Positions 1-53,631 of a stretch of 64,000 nt of DNA are shown here, piece after piece; position 1 is the first letter of the stretch, and the number at the start of each line of letters is the position of its first letter. The notes below the pieces were generated by a model that worked only from the letters and a program-made list of their open reading frames with translations, was not told where the DNA came from and made no database searches. The DNA is from Holdemania sp. Marseille-P2844 (GTDB lineage: Bacteria; Bacillota_I; Bacilli_A; Erysipelotrichales; Erysipelotrichaceae). The position numbers and the translations under genes were made by a program. The DNA lies in NCBI RefSeq assembly GCF_900120005.1, contig NZ_LT635447.1:1-64000 (forward strand), in the 5' to 3' direction.

Positions 1-565
1 ACTCCTGCTTGGCCGGAGCCTCGCCGTAATTCAACGACCCGACAGTCATCGTGTTAAATTGATCCACGGTAATGTTGGCGCTGTTAAACGACTCAACGGT
101 CCATGCCGGATAAAGCAGCTTGTGCTCCGCCAGCAGCTCGCCCCCGCGGTACCACCGGCAGATCGACTCTACCGGCTTGCTGTAGTCATCATAGTAACAG
201 GTGATGCCAGCCGAGCTGTGCCGCTTATCAAACTGCACCGTGATGATTTGTGGTCTGACAAACTCACAGCTGTCATCTGACAACTCTGACCACCAGCCTA
301 CTCTCTCCCGGGTGTAGTCATCCGGCATCAGCGTCATGGATCCGTCAAGCAGAAATTGATCGTACTCGCAAGTCGCAAAGCGTTTAGGGATATCACGGTA
401 GCCGTCATACACCTCACTGAGATGAGCCAGGCGCCACTGGCTTGCAGTCACCTCTGTGATATCACCCTTGGCGGTGTTGTCAAACACATCAATGTCAATC
501 TCGGCCTCGGTATTTCGCCATTTGAAAATTGAGTTTTCGTAAAACGTTTGTGTAGTCTTTGCCAT
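1..565 (-). CDS. Phage tail-region structural protein, partial (C-terminus off the left edge)
   Basis: The reading frame opens with ATG at 565 after a GGTAGGGTG ribosome binding site and stays open to position 1, giving the first 188 residues of a protein that begins MAKTTQTFYENSIFKW. It lies directly downstream of the DUF6711-like protein and tape measure, where phages of this type encode distal tail or baseplate proteins. The visible part is acidic and rich in aromatic residues, with no signal peptide or membrane segment. I do not recognise the family. A tail-tip or baseplate role is inferred from position only. Confidence 0.75.
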   Translation of the reverse strand, partial: MAKTTQTFYENSIFKWRNTEAEIDIDVFDNTAKGDITEVTASQWRLAHLSEVYDGYRDIPKRFATCEYDQFLLDGSMTLMPDDYTRERVGWWSELSDDSCEFVRPQIITVQFDKRHSSAGITCYYDDYSKPVESICRWYRGGELLAEHKLLYPAWTVESFNSANITVDQFNTMTVGSLNYGEAPAKQE

Positions 566-574
566 GTACTCACC

Positions 575-946
575 CTACCTTTCGATCGCCGAGAAAGAAA
601 AGTTTTTCCAGGCACGGCCCTGGCTGTCCTCATAGGCAAGACTTGCGGAAAGTTTTGAGCTGTACGCCTCCATCGTAACCGGATCGCCAGCTGGATCGTA
701 AAACTGGACATAAAAAAAAGGCGGAAGTCCCTTAGCCCATTTTACGAATCGTCTAAACTCAGGTGTCTCAATAGCGATCGCCCACTTGATCGTGATCTTG
801 TTTTTTTTGCCAATCACCTCGCGGAGCATTAAGCCTGAATCATTACGTCCGGATGTTTTATCCACATCGTTAAGCTCCCATGACAACTCGGTGGGGGACG
901 GAAAATCCCGAACCGTTGGATCGTCATCTGTCCAATATTTGAGCAT
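575..946 (-). CDS. Small phage tail protein, DUF6711-like
   Basis: A 123-residue protein with a good ribosome binding site (GGAGGGATAG) before ATG. It shows the pattern of small Bacillota phage tail proteins often placed in DUF6711: a central RNDSGLM stretch, an IKW strand, and an FYVQFYDP strand near residues 76-85. It follows the tape measure gene after 10 bp and precedes the tail-tip gene by 9 bp, so all three are almost certainly co-transcribed. A role at the distal tail is inferred from context. The family assignment rests on remembered motif layout rather than a search. Confidence 0.72.
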   Translation of the reverse strand: MLKYWTDDDPTVRDFPSPTELSWELNDVDKTSGRNDSGLMLREVIGKKNKITIKWAIAIETPEFRRFVKWAKGLPPFFYVQFYDPAGDPVTMEAYSSKLSASLAYEDSQGRAWKNFSFSAIER

Positions 947-956
947 CCTATCCCTC

Positions 957-3503
957 CTACCTGTTTATGCCATTAAACGCAAAATCACCACGGCGACCCT
1001 TTGTGCGATCCCAAGCCTCGCCGATGATCCCGACGATCTCATCCATCAAATAGACATCGCCGCTCTTATCCAGAAGCTGACGCAAAAGATCAATGATCAG
1101 ATCAAGCTGCACTGAGGTCATGCTGTTACCCTGGGGCAGCCGGGCTGCGACACGGTCCGCGAGCTGATCAATCCACCCGGTGTTGTTTTCCAGCGGCATG
1201 ACTGCTTCTTTGCCGGATTCGCCCACCATCGCCAATGTAGGCTGATCGATGAGACCACCTTGCGCAAGGTATGGAATTTGAGGTATTGTTACAAGCTGAA
1301 CGCTGCCACCATCATAAATTTTTTGTCCCATCAAATAAAGTGGATCCCAACTAAACTTAAGTTTTTCGTTTAACCATCCTATAAAGCGATTAACGTGTTC
1401 AATCGCCCAGTTTATACCTCGTTTAAAGCCATCACCGATATTGTGGGCTAGCTCTCCGAAGAAATCTCCAATTTTCTTTACAGTTGTGTCAAAGAATGTT
1501 TTCACTTCGGTAAATTTCACCTGAATACTATCACATAACGATTTAAATTTACCTGAAACCCAAGTTACAAGCGTGCTCCATAAATTCGTTAAACCGGTTC
1601 GGATACCCTCGACTAAGTTTGTTGCTAATGTTCCTCCAATTTCCAGGAACATCGTGAATAAAACATCTAGCGAAACAAGGAAAAGTTCTGCCATCAGTGA
1701 AACTAAGGACACAAAAATACCTAGCCAGTCAATAGACATCAAGCCTTGAGCAAATGACTCTCCCACAGCTCTGTAATCTGTTTCCCTTAATTTCTGCGTC
1801 CACGAATCCATTAGATTGATTGCAAGTACACTCAATCCCTCACCCAATACACCCAAATCAGCGTTTATAAACGCATTTGCAATCATCTGCATAAATCCGC
1901 CTAAGAAACTTCCGATTGTGTCGCCAAGCATTCCCCAATCAAATGTTTCAAACAAACCTGCCAGTCCATCTCCAATAAATACACCTAAGCTATCCCAGTT
2001 TATCCCAGTTACCAGACCATGTAAGAGACTTAACGCTGTATTTAAAGCTTCAGCAATATTTTTACCGATTTTTTTTCCTAGACCTGGGAACTCTACAAAT
2101 CCGTTTATCAACTGAGCTAAATTAGAACCGACCTTAGCAGCCTTCGCCTTAATTGGAGCCCAATTTATTTTATCTAATGCTTCACTTAGCTTTTCACCGA
2201 ACAAAGCGCCAATCCCATACCAATCGCCAGCATCAATTAAATCTTTCAGTTTCTGTGCAAAATCAGAAATCCCTGAAGTATTGATTTCAGGCATGGTGAT
2301 TTCGGGTAGCGCCGCACCATCGTCCTCTTTTTGTCCGATAATATTGAGCTCGTCAAACGATGCAAGTTGAAGACTTGCTTTTTTTGCAGCCCCGCCCACT
2401 CCAGACAGTGCCTGCTTTTGAGCATTAAGCTGCTTTGTAGTAGCCACGCTCGCAGAAAGTGAGCTGCCAAACAGTGTGGAAGTAAATGCAGCAAAATAGG
2501 CAGTAATCTTAGAAAGTCCCGCCATCAGTGCATTAACTGCCGGTAGAATTGCCTGAAAAATAGGAGTGAAAGCGACAGAAAGATTGGACTTAACCTGCTT
2601 TAACGATCGGTTGAATTGATCGTTAGTCTGTAAGCTTTGGCTTAGCGATGTAAACATTGACTTAATGCCTTTTGTAATCGCAGGCATAAGCAGTCTAAAT
2701 ACAACCAAAGTACCTAACAAGCGTTTAAAAGAAAACCGCGAAGTGCTGGCATGTTTACCGCTGTTTTTGAGATGAAGATTGAATTTCGGCAAATTTTTAA
2801 CCAATCCGCCAATCACTGACCCAAATTTTCCTAAACTTGAAAATAAGCTTTTAAAGGAAAAACCAGATGATTTACTTTGGGATCCTAGAGAAGATAACTT
2901 GTTTCGTAACGAGTCCGCCTTAATCTCAAGATCAACCATTTGCGCGCCGATTTGTTTTAAATTAGATTCAAATCCATCTGCTGCAATTGGATCTGTCTTA
3001 ATTGCTTTTTGCATCGCGTCCTCAAGTTCATTTGATTTATTTCTCAACTTTTCCATCTGTGCTTCTATTTGAGTTAATTGATTGTTGATTAGTTCTTTCT
3101 GCTGTTCAATATTAAAATCAATTTTTATCTTTGGGAAGGATATGACTGAAGGCGGCGCTCGTGGCATGGCTGATCCCGGTGTCGTTTGAGATGGTTGTGT
3201 AGTGTCCTCGGGTGCCGGCATGTTTGGCATCTTAACGTTATTGATCTGTTTAAGATAATCTTCCAGCTCCTTTTTGCTTGCTGCCATCATATTACGGACC
3301 TCATCCGTAATCGCCTGCAAGCTATCGGTCATGGATTTAGCCATATCCTCAAAAAGCTTTTTGATCGGCTCTTGCATTGTTTGTGACAGCTGCTTTTGAA
3401 GATTTTGTGTCAGCTCCATCATCTGTTCTTTGAGGTTTCCACCCATCTCGATATCAAGGGATATTTTACCGATTGACGTACCACCCGAAGCGGATTCTGC
3501 CAT
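957..3503 (-). CDS. Tail tape measure protein
   Basis: 848 residues, the longest structural gene in view, placed directly after the tail assembly chaperones. Residues 20-110 and 125-200 are predicted coiled coil. A hydrophobic stretch lies near residues 255-345. From about residue 400 to 600 there are repeated amphipathic segments built around an INW or DW turn followed by glycine-rich helices. The C-terminus has the conserved tape-measure ending with GGLIDQPTLAMVGESGKEA. The protein sets tail length and is ejected with the DNA. The start at 3503 follows GAGGTGAGAAT. No peptidase or lysozyme domain is evident. Confidence 0.93.
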   Translation of the reverse strand: MAESASGGTSIGKISLDIEMGGNLKEQMMELTQNLQKQLSQTMQEPIKKLFEDMAKSMTDSLQAITDEVRNMMAASKKELEDYLKQINNVKMPNMPAPEDTTQPSQTTPGSAMPRAPPSVISFPKIKIDFNIEQQKELINNQLTQIEAQMEKLRNKSNELEDAMQKAIKTDPIAADGFESNLKQIGAQMVDLEIKADSLRNKLSSLGSQSKSSGFSFKSLFSSLGKFGSVIGGLVKNLPKFNLHLKNSGKHASTSRFSFKRLLGTLVVFRLLMPAITKGIKSMFTSLSQSLQTNDQFNRSLKQVKSNLSVAFTPIFQAILPAVNALMAGLSKITAYFAAFTSTLFGSSLSASVATTKQLNAQKQALSGVGGAAKKASLQLASFDELNIIGQKEDDGAALPEITMPEINTSGISDFAQKLKDLIDAGDWYGIGALFGEKLSEALDKINWAPIKAKAAKVGSNLAQLINGFVEFPGLGKKIGKNIAEALNTALSLLHGLVTGINWDSLGVFIGDGLAGLFETFDWGMLGDTIGSFLGGFMQMIANAFINADLGVLGEGLSVLAINLMDSWTQKLRETDYRAVGESFAQGLMSIDWLGIFVSLVSLMAELFLVSLDVLFTMFLEIGGTLATNLVEGIRTGLTNLWSTLVTWVSGKFKSLCDSIQVKFTEVKTFFDTTVKKIGDFFGELAHNIGDGFKRGINWAIEHVNRFIGWLNEKLKFSWDPLYLMGQKIYDGGSVQLVTIPQIPYLAQGGLIDQPTLAMVGESGKEAVMPLENNTGWIDQLADRVAARLPQGNSMTSVQLDLIIDLLRQLLDKSGDVYLMDEIVGIIGEAWDRTKGRRGDFAFNGINR

Positions 3504-9547: not shown

Positions 9548-11063
9548 TGGTCATCTGCTCGATTGGCGGCATGGTCTGCGTAATCGGTGGAAGATCGAAC
9601 TCGTTTACCGCTGCCGGTTGCTGCATTGGGATCAGCCCGTCTCTTTCATTCAGCCGGCGGATTTCCTCTTTCTTTTCTTCCTCATCCAGGCTGTCCCCGT
9701 ACATTTCTTCGATGATCCGCTCGTTGCTCATGACGCCGTATTGCTTCGCCTTACCGACGGTCTCAACCACAGATTCAAACGACGGGTTCGCATACTCGCC
9801 AAAACTGCAGGTGATTTCGTATTCCTGGTACGGCTTTCCTGCCGCCGTGTCCATGATCTTAAGTGCTGTTGAGATAATATCCGGAATGACCTTTTCCGCC
9901 AGCTTTACGATCTTGTTTCTGGTGTACAGCGTGGCCTTTTCTTTTTCCCGCTGTGCTTCCGCATTGTCCATCTTCTTCACGTCAATGCCGAGTGTAGCAG
10001 GGCTGACAAGTCCCTGAAGGCACAGATCTAGCGCGGCCATGTATGCCGCCATCAATCCCTCGCCGTCCACCTGCCCTTGCTTTACATCAATGGTATTGTT
10101 TGCCGTTTCGGCACCGGATCCCGTGATCTTGATAAAGCGACTGTCAAACGTGTTGGGTTTAAGCAGATCGCCACGCTTGGGATCTCGGGGAATCATCTTG
10201 TCTGGGATAAATGTCTTTGTCCGGTTATCTCGCAGCGCCTCAATCCATTGGCTGAAAGCCTCATCAAAACTGTCAAAAGCGTCCTCTTTTCCATCAAACA
10301 GCGACTTTCCACGGCCTTTATATTTTGGCGATGATCCGAAAATCACCGGAACCGCCATCATATACGCCTGCGATTTACTGATTGGTTTAAGGTGTGCGAA
10401 TTCGGGATAATCAAGCAGGTTTTCCTTTTCCCAAGTTGGGCTGTAAAGCTCGTAATCTATCCCATGTTCATCATAGATTTCATGCAATTCAAAACGACCT
10501 TCACTGAATTCATACGGATTCTTAAAAATGATCTTTTTGATTTTCCCATGCACAAAAACAAATTTGACCTGATCCGCCGGATAAAACTCTGGAATTGGAT
10601 AAGGACTTTCTTCTGGATGGAAAGAAAACTTGATTGCTCCATCGCCTAAATAGAGCGCTTGCTTAAAGATATCTTTCCAGAAATCGTCAGGGAGTTCTTT
10701 CTCCATTTCCTCCCAACGCTGCTTTCCTTTGGTGTTGTCAAAATCCAGCTCATTCATATCGTCTAAAACGATACCTGTCAAAACATCGACAATTAAAGCC
10801 GGTAATCCTGTATGAATTTTTCTGAAATCAACGCCATTAGTTGCCGTCGCTGCCCAAAACTTTGTGTTGCCCATCATATCATCAATGGTCGTGTAAAACT
10901 GATGCAGCTCCGACGGATCTCCACGATACCAGATCTGGTTTTTGAATACATTGGCATCAAAGTCCATCGGCTCAATAATCCGCACCGTCAACGGATTCAT
11001 ACCTTTGTCAATTTCCAGCCAGTTCCGCAGCTTTACCTTGACGCTTTGGCTAAATTTTCCCAT
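9534..11063 (-). CDS. Portal protein (SPP1 gp6-like)
   Basis: 509 residues starting MGKFSQSVKVKLRN at 11063, with AAAGGG upstream; an ATG six codons earlier lies inside the terminase gene with no site of its own. The protein follows the terminase and has the composition of SPP1-type portals: an acidic N-terminal wing, the segment FWKDIFKQALYLGDGAIK, a KKMDNAEAQREKEKATLYTR helix in the stem/crown region, and an acidic C-terminus ending in a Pro/Met-rich tail. It forms the dodecameric DNA entry channel. Confidence 0.92.
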   Translation of the reverse strand: MGKFSQSVKVKLRNWLEIDKGMNPLTVRIIEPMDFDANVFKNQIWYRGDPSELHQFYTTIDDMMGNTKFWAATATNGVDFRKIHTGLPALIVDVLTGIVLDDMNELDFDNTKGKQRWEEMEKELPDDFWKDIFKQALYLGDGAIKFSFHPEESPYPIPEFYPADQVKFVFVHGKIKKIIFKNPYEFSEGRFELHEIYDEHGIDYELYSPTWEKENLLDYPEFAHLKPISKSQAYMMAVPVIFGSSPKYKGRGKSLFDGKEDAFDSFDEAFSQWIEALRDNRTKTFIPDKMIPRDPKRGDLLKPNTFDSRFIKITGSGAETANNTIDVKQGQVDGEGLMAAYMAALDLCLQGLVSPATLGIDVKKMDNAEAQREKEKATLYTRNKIVKLAEKVIPDIISTALKIMDTAAGKPYQEYEITCSFGEYANPSFESVVETVGKAKQYGVMSNERIIEEMYGDSLDEEEKKEEIRRLNERDGLIPMQQPAAVNEFDLPPITQTMPPIEQMTNGNG

Positions 11064-29890: not shown

Positions 29891-30256
29891 TCAGTTCAGT
29901 TTTGTTCTTGCCTTCCGGTTGCCGCCGGTTGGCTTTTTTTGTGCTGTCAGCGTCTCGCTGATCCGCAACTGGTTGACCGCCTCGATAATTTTTTGCTCGC
30001 TGCTCAGGTCCATGCCGCGGGTCCGCTCCAGAAATCTCTCGGCCTCTTCCCGGGTGTATATCCACTCCTGCCCGTTCCGCGTGCCGGTAAGCAACCCATG
30101 CTTGCGCAGCACATGGATCCTTTGCGGATATGTACCCAACGCCTCGGCAAGCTCCTTGGTGGTGTAAACCAGCTTGTACTGATTAGCAGCCAAGCTGGCC
30201 TGCAACATGTCAACCTTTTTTGTTAGCTGCTCGATGGCAGCCAGTAACTCGTCCAT
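29891..30256 (-). CDS. HTH DNA-binding protein (excisionase/MerR-like)
   Basis: 121 residues with GGAGGATTAAGGGC before ATG. An N-terminal coiled coil (residues 3-27) is followed by a winged-helix/MerR-type HTH, TTKELAEALGTYPQRIHVLRKHGLL, and a wing with GTRNGQEWIYTREE. The basic C-terminus is variable. Early position and domain suggest an excisionase-like or regulatory protein. About 30 bp downstream a short inverted repeat precedes the next gene. Confidence 0.78.
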   Translation of the reverse strand: MDELLAAIEQLTKKVDMLQASLAANQYKLVYTTKELAEALGTYPQRIHVLRKHGLLTGTRNGQEWIYTREEAERFLERTRGMDLSSEQKIIEAVNQLRISETLTAQKKPTGGNRKARTKLN

Positions 30257-30270
30257 GCCCTTAATCCTCC

Positions 30271-30453
30271 TTATCTCGCTTGTGCTTGGTCAGTTCTGGG
30301 CGTCGTAGGCTTGCGTGCCTTTTGATCAAGGGCTTCGCGCGCTTTAAGCAACTGCATGTCATGTTCCAACATAGCCTGCCCTACAGGACTAAGCTCGCGG
30401 AAAGCCTTTAAAAACTTCTGCATTTCCTGCTGATCGCTGTTCTTTTTACGCAT
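30271..30453 (-). CDS. 60-residue phage protein
   Basis: ATG at 30453 with GAAAGGAG upstream, 14 bp before the HTH gene. The product begins MRKKNSDQQEMQKFLKAFREL and is a charged helix bundle with a basic, proline-containing tail. It is the first gene after the 430-bp gap holding the RNA candidate. Function unknown. Confidence 0.65.
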   Translation of the reverse strand: MRKKNSDQQEMQKFLKAFRELSPVGQAMLEHDMQLLKAREALDQKARKPTTPRTDQAQAR

Positions 30454-30598
30454 ACTCTCACACTCCTTTCTGGCCTCATCAGTGCCGGCCTAACCGGCAG
30501 ACCATCGGGCAGATCGCCCTAGGTTTCGACCTGTTAAAAATTTCCAAGTTGTGTTAAAATTATCGTGGAGGTGATAAAGTTGACAAAACTTTTGAACT

Positions 30599-30887
30599 CC
30601 CCTATTCTTCATAGCTAAGATCGCACACCGTGCGCCAGCAGACGGCTGTTTTTGCTTAGAATGACAATCGCTTTTTATATTTGCTTACCATGGCAAATAT
30701 AATAGATTCTAAGTGTTGCACAGCAAGCAACCATACTTTACTGTGGCTGAAATGTAATCTTAGCTACCGCTCAATAGGGTCTTCGGCAGAAGCGTCCTGC
30801 CTTAAGTGGGTGGACTTCCAGGTGACGCTGGAAGTTGAGGTAAACAAATAACGCAGGCATCAGTGCGTCACCACTGGTGCTTTTTTA
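30599..30887 (+). ncRNA. Candidate structured non-coding RNA, about 275-290 nt, with intrinsic terminator
   Basis: No gene lies between 30453 and 30885, but the plus strand contains nested helices. A 10-bp perfect helix (30612-30621 with 30757-30766) is extended outward by 7 bp (CCCTATT 30600-30606 with AATAGGG 30773-30779). It encloses hairpins at 30622-30634 and 30636-30648, a 9-bp helix (30654-30662/30706-30714) capped by a 10-bp hairpin (30675-30684/30693-30702), and a hairpin at 30719-30745. Beyond are hairpins at 30785-30801 and 30814-30835. A 9-bp stem plus TTTTTT (30857-30886) terminates it. TTGACA-N17-TATTCT (30580-30608) could be its promoter, though the outer helix would then need an upstream start. 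No class is recognised. Confidence 0.7.
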
Positions 30888-31094
30888 TTTGTTGTTGAAG
30901 AATACTTGATCGACACTAACATCAGGAAATTTCACTTTAAATTTCTTAAGAAATTCATAACTTGGATTTTGATATCCACTTTCAACCTTGTAGTAATAGG
31001 AAGCAGAAACACCTATTTTTTCAGCCATTGCTTTTTTAGTTAAATCAGCCGATCTTCTAAGGTTAATTAAGTTCACCATTTCTTTACTTTTCAT
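30885..31094 (-). CDS. Cro-side XRE-family HTH protein
   Basis: 69 residues, a single HTH domain: LRRSADLTKKAMAEKIGVS then ASYYYKVESGYQNPSYEFLK. It lies in the transcript divergent from the CI-type repressor and probably acts as the Cro-like or secondary regulator of the lytic switch. The start overlaps the previous gene by 11 bp. Its stop codon coincides with the end of the RNA candidate on the opposite strand. Confidence 0.85.
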   Translation of the reverse strand: MKSKEMVNLINLRRSADLTKKAMAEKIGVSASYYYKVESGYQNPSYEFLKKFKVKFPDVSVDQVFFNNK

Positions 31095-31642: not shown

Positions 31643-31722
31643 TATTGCAATATCATATTACACCAAACGTTTATTTCCGTCAATACAAAAATATTGCAAA
31701 AGTTTATTTTTTAGTTTATGAT
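31643..31722. promoter_or_regulatory. Divergent lysis-lysogeny promoters with two operator dyads
   Basis: Minus strand: TTGACG (31678-31683), a 17-bp spacer and TAATAT (31655-31660), giving a start near 31648. Plus strand: TTGCAA (31694-31699), 17 bp and TATGAT (31717-31722), giving a start near 31729 for the repressor. Two matching dyads built on TATTGCAATA lie at 31643-31652 (perfect, at the minus start site) and 31691-31700 (9 of 10, over the plus -35), 49 bp apart. Repressor bound at both would shut lytic transcription and control its own synthesis. Confidence 0.8.
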
Positions 31723-31753: not shown

Positions 31754-32143
31754 ATGACTATAAATGAGCGCGTGCGCGCATTGAGAAAGGAACTCGGGAT
31801 GAATCAGACTGAATTTGGCGAGCGTATCGCCTTATCACAAGGTCACCTTACAAGTGTCGAACAAGGCAAAAGAGCAGTTACCGACCGAACCATCAAATTG
31901 ATTTGTACTGAATTCGGTGTATCTGAAGATTGGCTGCGGACAGGCAAAGAGCCCAAGTATTTGAATGATGATGATTCCAGTCTTTTCCGGCAGGCCGCTG
32001 CGGGCATCGAGATGGTTGATGACAAACGTGCGATGGCTGCGCTTGAGGTTTACTGGTCGCTAAGCCCGGATGACAAAAAAGTGATCTGGACAATGCTTGA
32101 CCAGATTTATGAAAAAGTGCATAAAAAAAAGAGCAGCGACTAA
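31754..32143 (+). CDS. CI-type prophage repressor (XRE family)
   Basis: 129 residues with AAAGGAGG before ATG. The N-terminal XRE HTH includes RALRKELGMNQTEFGERIAL then SQGHLTSVEQGKR. The second half is a short helical region (SLFRQAAAGIEMV, PDDKKVIWTMLDQIYEKV), likely for dimerisation. There is no S24 peptidase domain, so RecA-stimulated self-cleavage as in lambda CI is not expected; induction would need an antirepressor or another route. It is expressed from a promoter overlapping an operator dyad. Confidence 0.88.
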   Translation: MTINERVRALRKELGMNQTEFGERIALSQGHLTSVEQGKRAVTDRTIKLICTEFGVSEDWLRTGKEPKYLNDDDSSLFRQAAAGIEMVDDKRAMAALEVYWSLSPDDKKVIWTMLDQIYEKVHKKKSSD

Positions 32144-53394: not shown

Positions 53395-53631
53395 ACAAAA
53401 AAGCCGTTCCTCTATCTAGGAACGACTCACATCGCGGTACCACCCTAGTTGCCGGAACAAAAACATCCGACCCCCTCGTTCGTTAACGCAGACTCACGTT
53501 TCAGACTACTGCTTTCATCTGAACTTCTCCCAGGTGCGCTTCGCTATTGACAGTGCCGCCAAACTTTCACTCTGTTTTGGCTCGCTAATGGATATCTCAA
53601 GCTACTCTCCTGTTCGCTGAATTTTGAATAT
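53395..53631 (-). promoter_or_regulatory. T-box riboswitch, specifier most likely CGC (arginine)
   Basis: The minus-strand leader contains the T-box sequence AGGGTGGTACCGCG (53433-53446) and a terminator CGTTCC/GGAACG followed by six T residues (53397-53424). In stem I the specifier loop has AGTA on the 5' side and GAA-G-CGC-A on the 3' side, so the codon is read as CGC, arginine. The UGGU in the T-box pairs with ACCA of uncharged tRNA. Uncharged tRNA-Arg would favour the antiterminator and transporter expression. If the register were one base off, GCG (Ala) would be the alternative. Confidence 0.93.

Follow-up and report, generated by a model that had tools for sequence, protein, structure and literature searches.

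The locus and its RNA

The window, meaning the whole analysed stretch of 64,000 nucleotides from Holdemania sp. Marseille-P2844 (contig NZ_LT635447.1, positions 1 to 64,000), carries a phage early region in which minus-strand early genes, including a small regulator gene of the XRE type, are followed by an RNA on the plus strand and then by further minus-strand early genes (Table 1). The stop codon of the XRE gene overlaps the U run of the RNA's terminator. The integrase is coded for on the plus strand, like the CI-like repressor.

Plus-strand positions 30530-30890 fold with -108.4 kcal/mol, compared with -90.7 +/- 5.4 kcal/mol for shuffled sequences (z -3.3). For 30567-30887 (+), the probable extent of the transcript, the values are -103.7 against -83.1 +/- 4.5 kcal/mol (z -4.6); in both cases 0/100 shuffles were as good. 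Folding of the opposite (minus) strand is weaker than that of the plus strand (z -3.0). The window thus holds a real structured RNA of roughly 320 nt, as the first-pass annotation had claimed. The two main helices which that annotation described, one of 10 bp (30612-30621/30757-30766) and one of 7 bp (30600-30606/30773-30779), are both found, as are its 3' hairpin (30814-30832) and its intrinsic terminator (30857-30886), the latter with 11 pairs according to a terminator scan. Equivalents of the 10-bp helix, with different sequences, recur as closing helices in relatives, and in 13 relatives these helices are more stable with the native partner than with a swapped one (-12.3 vs -8.3 kcal/mol, p 1.5e-4). 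A plain riboswitch was set aside, as no gene follows the RNA on the same strand.

Table 1. Features of the RNA and its surroundings; positions are those of the window
Feature	Position	Strand	Basis
HTH_17/excisionase-like gene, next after the first divergent gene	29891-30256	-	
First gene divergent from the RNA	30271-30453	-	
Likely promoter, extended -10 TGtTAAAAT (30552-30560) with AATTTCCAAGTT before it	30539-30560	+	Common to XRE-type lineages
Shine-Dalgarno sequence (SD), GGAGGTG	30567-30573	+	5'-end comparison; paired in MFE fold
Tiny ORF, TTG start, MTKLLNSPILHS	30580-30618	+	Comparison of relatives
Strand p of 7-bp pseudoknot helix, CCCTATT, within ORF	30600-30606	+	Pairs with AATAGGG 30773-30779
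Variable 5' domain, closed by the 10-bp helix	30612-30766	+	Predicted fold
FuFi-1 core	30767-30813	+	RF02986 match; P1 and hairpin covariation in 17 relatives
P1 of core, CCGCTCA/TGGGTGG	30767-30773/30807-30813	+	
Pseudoknot strand q, inside P1 loop	30773-30779	+	
Core hairpin, GGCAG/CTGCC, then TTAAG	30785-30789/30797-30801	+	
Hairpin ACTTCCAGG...CTGGAAGT, counterpart of FuFi-1 P3 domain	30814-30832	+	RF02986 match and fold
GGTAAACAAAT, conserved, unpaired	30839-30849	+	RF02986 match; same or similar string in other members
Intrinsic terminator, FuFi-1 3' hairpin and U run	30857-30886	+	RF02986 match, fold, terminator scan
Small XRE (HTH_3) early regulator, convergent with the RNA	30885-31094	-	HTH_3 E 4e-11
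PR-like promoter	31683-31655	-	Divergent, upstream of CI-like repressor
PRM-like promoter	31694-31722	+	Upstream of CI-like repressor
CI-like repressor, on the RNA's strand	31754-32143	+	

Relationship to the FuFi-1 family

The first-pass annotation had assigned the RNA to no known class. This assignment has to be revised: its 3' half is a divergent form of FuFi-1 (RF02986), to our knowledge an orphan RNA family of unknown function. Neither "FuFi-1" nor "RF02986" occurred in the open-access full texts searched. Gathering-level Rfam matches in the window are confined to a T-box and tRNA, with none at the RNA locus; the T-box leader, at 53415-53626 (-), scores 112 bits. At relaxed thresholds the covariance-model comparison, proposed earlier as a check, gives a match of 30767-30886 to RF02986 that is full-length but stays below the gathering cut-off (36.7 bits, curated cut-off 59.6). 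It spans model positions 1-175, with P1, hairpin, P3, spacer and terminator in order, and has an E of 2.3e-6 in 601 nt and of 1.4e-4 when 37 kb were searched with 4227 families. Covariation of P1 and of the hairpin in 17 relatives is as the family predicts. The window RNA was not recovered by a whole-genome RF02986 search, nor was its locus matched, at E up to 10, by a 60-position core model (R1) built from 14 other members with the window and L014 excluded. No useful match came from a BLASTN comparison of the window RNA with phages and plasmids.

The family can be reached from the window through a chain of intermediates. The window RNA aligns end-to-end with that of L014, from SD to terminator (nhmmer, E 9.8e-6), and L014 has its promoter element and XRE gene in common with L017. 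The latter is one of five viral contigs retrieved by a search with the XRE protein, blind to RNA; retrieved by this protein alone, it carries a FuFi-1 of 110.6 bits in the same convergent position. The same position is occupied by a FuFi-1 of 63.8 bits in L004, from a genome of the same family. The window XRE protein is 60-63% identical to those beside the RNA in L014, L017 and L004. On the phage contig L021, an L014-type RNA and a second one, L021b, are present together. Three results of sequence comparison, namely the full-length RF02986 match, the link through intermediates and the common synteny, lead us to regard the window RNA as a divergent FuFi-1 relative.

It shares with RF02986 a P1 with long loop, the GCAG hairpin, TAAG, P3, GGUAAACAAAU and the terminator. 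Unlike the aligned members, the Rfam model is devoid of the 5' half, which consists of a promoter-proximal leader, the tiny ORF, the helices p:q and r:p (described below) and the variable 5' domain. The comparison therefore extends FuFi-1 by a second half (tiny ORF, pseudoknot and competing helix), and it also assigns to the family a probable promoter and a genomic setting, phage immunity and early regions. As these are now supplied, the function of FuFi-1 is directly testable in a lysogen.

Several further loci came out of the searches. The two diverged FuFi-1-like RNAs of L021 (439-880 and 7393-7770) are each convergent with their own XRE paralogue and carry the same promoter element. A promoter-pattern scan of genome contigs retrieved L030 (Faecalibacillus faecis), with an RNA practically identical to that of L014, besides 10 chance matches. 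Rejected candidates include the match in L003, a chance one within coding DNA; the weak RF02986 matches L006-L012, left unused, of which L006 and L007, for example, are largely coding sequence; L053/L059 and L056, which show the hairpin pattern alone and were not counted as members; and the XRE relative of a Terrisporobacter phage, where an antirepressor directly after the XRE gene leaves no space for an RNA. Among XRE relatives from GenBank phages, L042 and L043 had no gathering-level FuFi-1 and L042-L044 no R1 match.

The promoter, the tiny ORF and its pairing partners

The promoter element with AATTTCCAAGTT is the sole match in the window, where 0.01 are expected at <=3 mismatches. A TGNTANAAT-like box is found at comparable position in nearly all of the 17 relatives. 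Of the two promoters that had been suggested, we prefer the upstream TTAAAAT box, which gives the longer RNA and whose extended -10 (TGNTAAAAT or similar) is kept upstream of the ORF in nearly all relatives; transcription would start at ~30567. The other, TTGACA-N17-TATTCT, exists as a string but not, in our reading, as a promoter: the TTGACA is read as the start of the ORF, because the ORF is conserved and the "-10" is not. The region with this string has 5 promoter-like matches vs 3.1 expected. In five lineages (the window, L014, L017, L021b and L004) the -10 box is adjoined by AATTTCCNANTT, at 30539-30550 in the window, which was found only beside an XRE gene of the SYYYKVESG type; other relatives are without it. 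The restriction of AATTTCCNANTT to these lineages suggests that the SYYYKVESG-type XRE protein may bind it as an operator.

The 5' end of the window RNA reads GGAGGTG-N6-TTG ACA AAA CTT TTG AAC TCC CCT ATT CTT CAT AGC TAA. An SD and an ORF are present at the equivalent place in 17/17 relatives alignable over the 5' part. The ORFs are of the type M(T/L)K(L/A/F)Lx(L/S)P, start with ATG, TTG or GTG and code, for example, for M-T-K-L-L-I-L-P-C..., M-L-K-A-L-L-N-L-P... or M-L-K-A-A-L-N-S-P.... Most of the ORF-bearing loci were retrieved via the XRE gene or a 3'-domain pattern, independently of the ORF. The exception to its presence is L045, which has a strong FuFi-1 without the tiny ORF. We infer that the ORF is translated.

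Comparison of the relatives indicates that the 5' end of the family consists of this conserved ORF with two alternative RNA pairing partners, one in the P1 loop of the FuFi-1 core (helix p:q) and one in the leader (r:p), which are mutually exclusive and which both covary. The helix p:q is the 7-bp helix, described earlier as an outer helix; it is a pseudoknot, because it joins the ORF to the P1 loop. It covaries across 17 relatives (0.294 vs 0.182 after shuffling, with 0/500 shuffles as high as the observed value), pairing in its 4-bp core amounts to 97% over these members, and its compensatory changes are G-C to A-U three times and C-G to A-U or U-A three times. In r:p, the ORF segment pairs in relatives with the leader immediately 5' of the SD or at the SD; in the window, GGAG of the SD can pair with CTCC of the ORF (30597-30600). 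Covariation of r:p is 0.378 vs 0.173 after shuffling, again with 0/500 reaching the observed value. Because the blocks behind these counts had been put in register manually, and in five members partly with the help of pairing itself, the helices were retested by whole-block swaps and with anchored members: among the 11 distinct members in which conserved letters fix the register, the observed covariation was reached by 5/2000 swaps for r:p and by 12/2000 for p:q. ViennaRNA folds of the window contain both states, since the MFE structure is r:p with the SD paired and p:q appears in the centroid of 30530-30890. The search for compensatory changes in homologous phage loci, which the first-pass annotation had proposed, was thus successful for p:q, P1 and the hairpin, and in addition for r:p.

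The ORF might also matter for its product, a functional micropeptide (toxin, signal or regulator) of which the RNA is a long structured mRNA, and the core M-x-K-x-L-x-x-P is indeed broadly kept in the 17 members. However, the peptides vary between 12 and 36 residues and are not conserved past the P, the nucleotides take part in two helices, and the paired block in the window and L014 is one base out of frame compared with most others; we regard such a function as quite improbable. A type I toxin was set aside, the peptide not being of toxin type. That the element is vestigial or non-transcribed might be concluded from its single copy in the genome, but is scarcely credible when each of its parts, from promoter, SD and ORF to helices and terminator, has persisted over large sequence distance.

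A candidate role in lysogeny control

Phage immunity or early regions harbour 16 of the 18 loci. In 13 of the 18, the window included, the 3' end of the RNA faces the 3' end of an early HTH/Cro-like or antirepressor gene; one of the 13, L021b, is flanked by replication and RecT-like genes further down an early operon. In L046, L049 and L054 the repressor comes directly after the RNA on the same strand, L058 lies away from an evident immunity region, and L005 is chromosomal, beside recO/era. A repressor is visible in 14 loci, and in every one of them it shares its strand with the RNA; the gene divergent from the RNA is often HTH_17 or antirepressor. The chromosomal RNA of L005, at 1450-1744 (+), is FuFi-1-like (43.7 bits), has its own TTGACA-17-TATAAT promoter and a tiny ORF, and is possibly domesticated.

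From the homology, the ORF, the two alternative helices and the location, all obtained by sequence comparison, we propose that the divergent phage FuFi-1 relative is a translation-coupled lysogeny-control RNA (~30567 to ~30887), a reading to which we give a probability of about 0.4. Its transcription, translation, switching and effect on lysogeny would proceed as follows. The RNA would be transcribed from the extended -10 promoter and end at the terminator. In the r:p state, pairing of the ORF segment with the leader or SD would occlude the translation start, while in the p:q state the same segment would form the pseudoknot with the loop of P1 in the 3' domain. Both pairings would be prevented while a ribosome occupies the ORF, and leader translation may therefore set the fold of the RNA. 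The RNA would run on the repressor strand, opposite to the early lytic operon, and would stop where the early HTH gene has its 3' end; most likely it would help to establish or maintain lysogeny. This could happen in cis, by antisense pairing and transcriptional collision with readthrough from cro into the early genes, and/or in trans, its conserved 3' domain (GCAGAAC hairpin and GGUAAACAAAU) acting with a partner. The role in the lysogeny switch suggested at the outset is thus supported as a candidate. A general extension, that FuFi-1 RNAs are translation-gated switches in which the ribosome on the leader ORF picks the fold and the translation state feeds the lysis-lysogeny decision, is possible if doubtful. 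If leader translation does set the fold, phages would possess an RNA-based means of adjusting lysogeny to the translation of the host.

Lambda OOP and P22 sar/sas are short, simple antisense RNAs against the early lytic operon. The window RNA resembles them in being directed against this operon and in its end, which lies opposite to, and overlaps, the 3' end of the early regulator, and it would, once transcribed, be antisense to it. It differs by the conserved pseudoknotted fold and a leader that is probably translated. One could suppose, after the model of OOP, that the RNA matters in cis solely by pairing with early-operon readthrough and with the early HTH mRNA at its 3' end, and that the structure is incidental. 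The convergent overlap with the HTH stop codon, an arrangement that is the same in most loci, agrees with this, but the compensatory changes in P1, hairpin, p:q and r:p show selection on the plus-strand fold, and in three phages the 3' end of the RNA opposes no early HTH gene; we consider it improbable.

The translation-coupled reading also has to be weighed against attenuation of a transcript comparable to that from lambda PRE, which likewise starts between cro-like and early genes and heads toward the repressor. The window RNA differs from the PRE transcript in that it terminates before the early HTH gene and in that no CII-type activator is seen for it. In such attenuation, leader-ORF translation would decide on readthrough, and bypass of the terminator would extend the RNA, in antisense to the early HTH genes, as far as cI (and integrase). 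The RNA without exception shares the strand of the repressor and precedes it, directly so in L046, L049 and L054, and the ORF of the RNA, if translated as we suppose, overlaps mutually exclusive helices, in the manner of the short ORF within the helix ladder of trp and erm leader attenuators. Unlike in the latter, there is mostly no regulated gene directly downstream, and no antiterminator, that is, no upstream partner for the terminator arm at a constant place, was found among the 12 members scanned. Moreover, most members have a strong-looking terminator, and the window cI has a promoter-like sequence of its own. Attenuation is in our opinion rather unlikely.

Somewhat unlikely, too, is a prophage RNA acting in trans on host or competitor targets, in lysogenic conversion, superinfection exclusion, defence or counter-defence. 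Its 3' domain would bind a protein or mRNA, and its placement would reflect a region expressed in the lysogen. The conserved unpaired sequences and the pseudoknot are more than cis-antisense requires, and the chromosomal copy of L005 is not in an evident phage; both points fit such a function, whereas action on the switch is suggested by the close association of the RNA, in diverse phages, with the early HTH gene and the repressor strand.

ROOL and GOLLD, like the window RNA, are large structured phage-borne RNAs, but of another family, size and position. The phage contig L052 carries a ROOL at 281-873 (-) of 297.6 bits together with a FuFi-1 at 9774-10055 (+). On the phage contig L048, a DUF3800-VII RNA (10083-10163 (-), 61.7 bits) lies ~2 kb from the FuFi-1.

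The minus strand of the window also contains, at 30464-30531, a sequence that resembles a complete type II hammerhead, with stem I UGCCGGU/GCCGGCA, CUGAUGA, GAAA and a GUC site, and that lies in the 5' leader of the early operon running divergently from the RNA (gene 30271-30453). It scores 23.3 bits against an Rfam cut-off of 37 (E 0.04 at whole-genome scale) and is probably a type II hammerhead ribozyme. This putative ribozyme would cut readthrough RNA, which is antisense to the FuFi-1-like RNA, off the early-gene mRNA.
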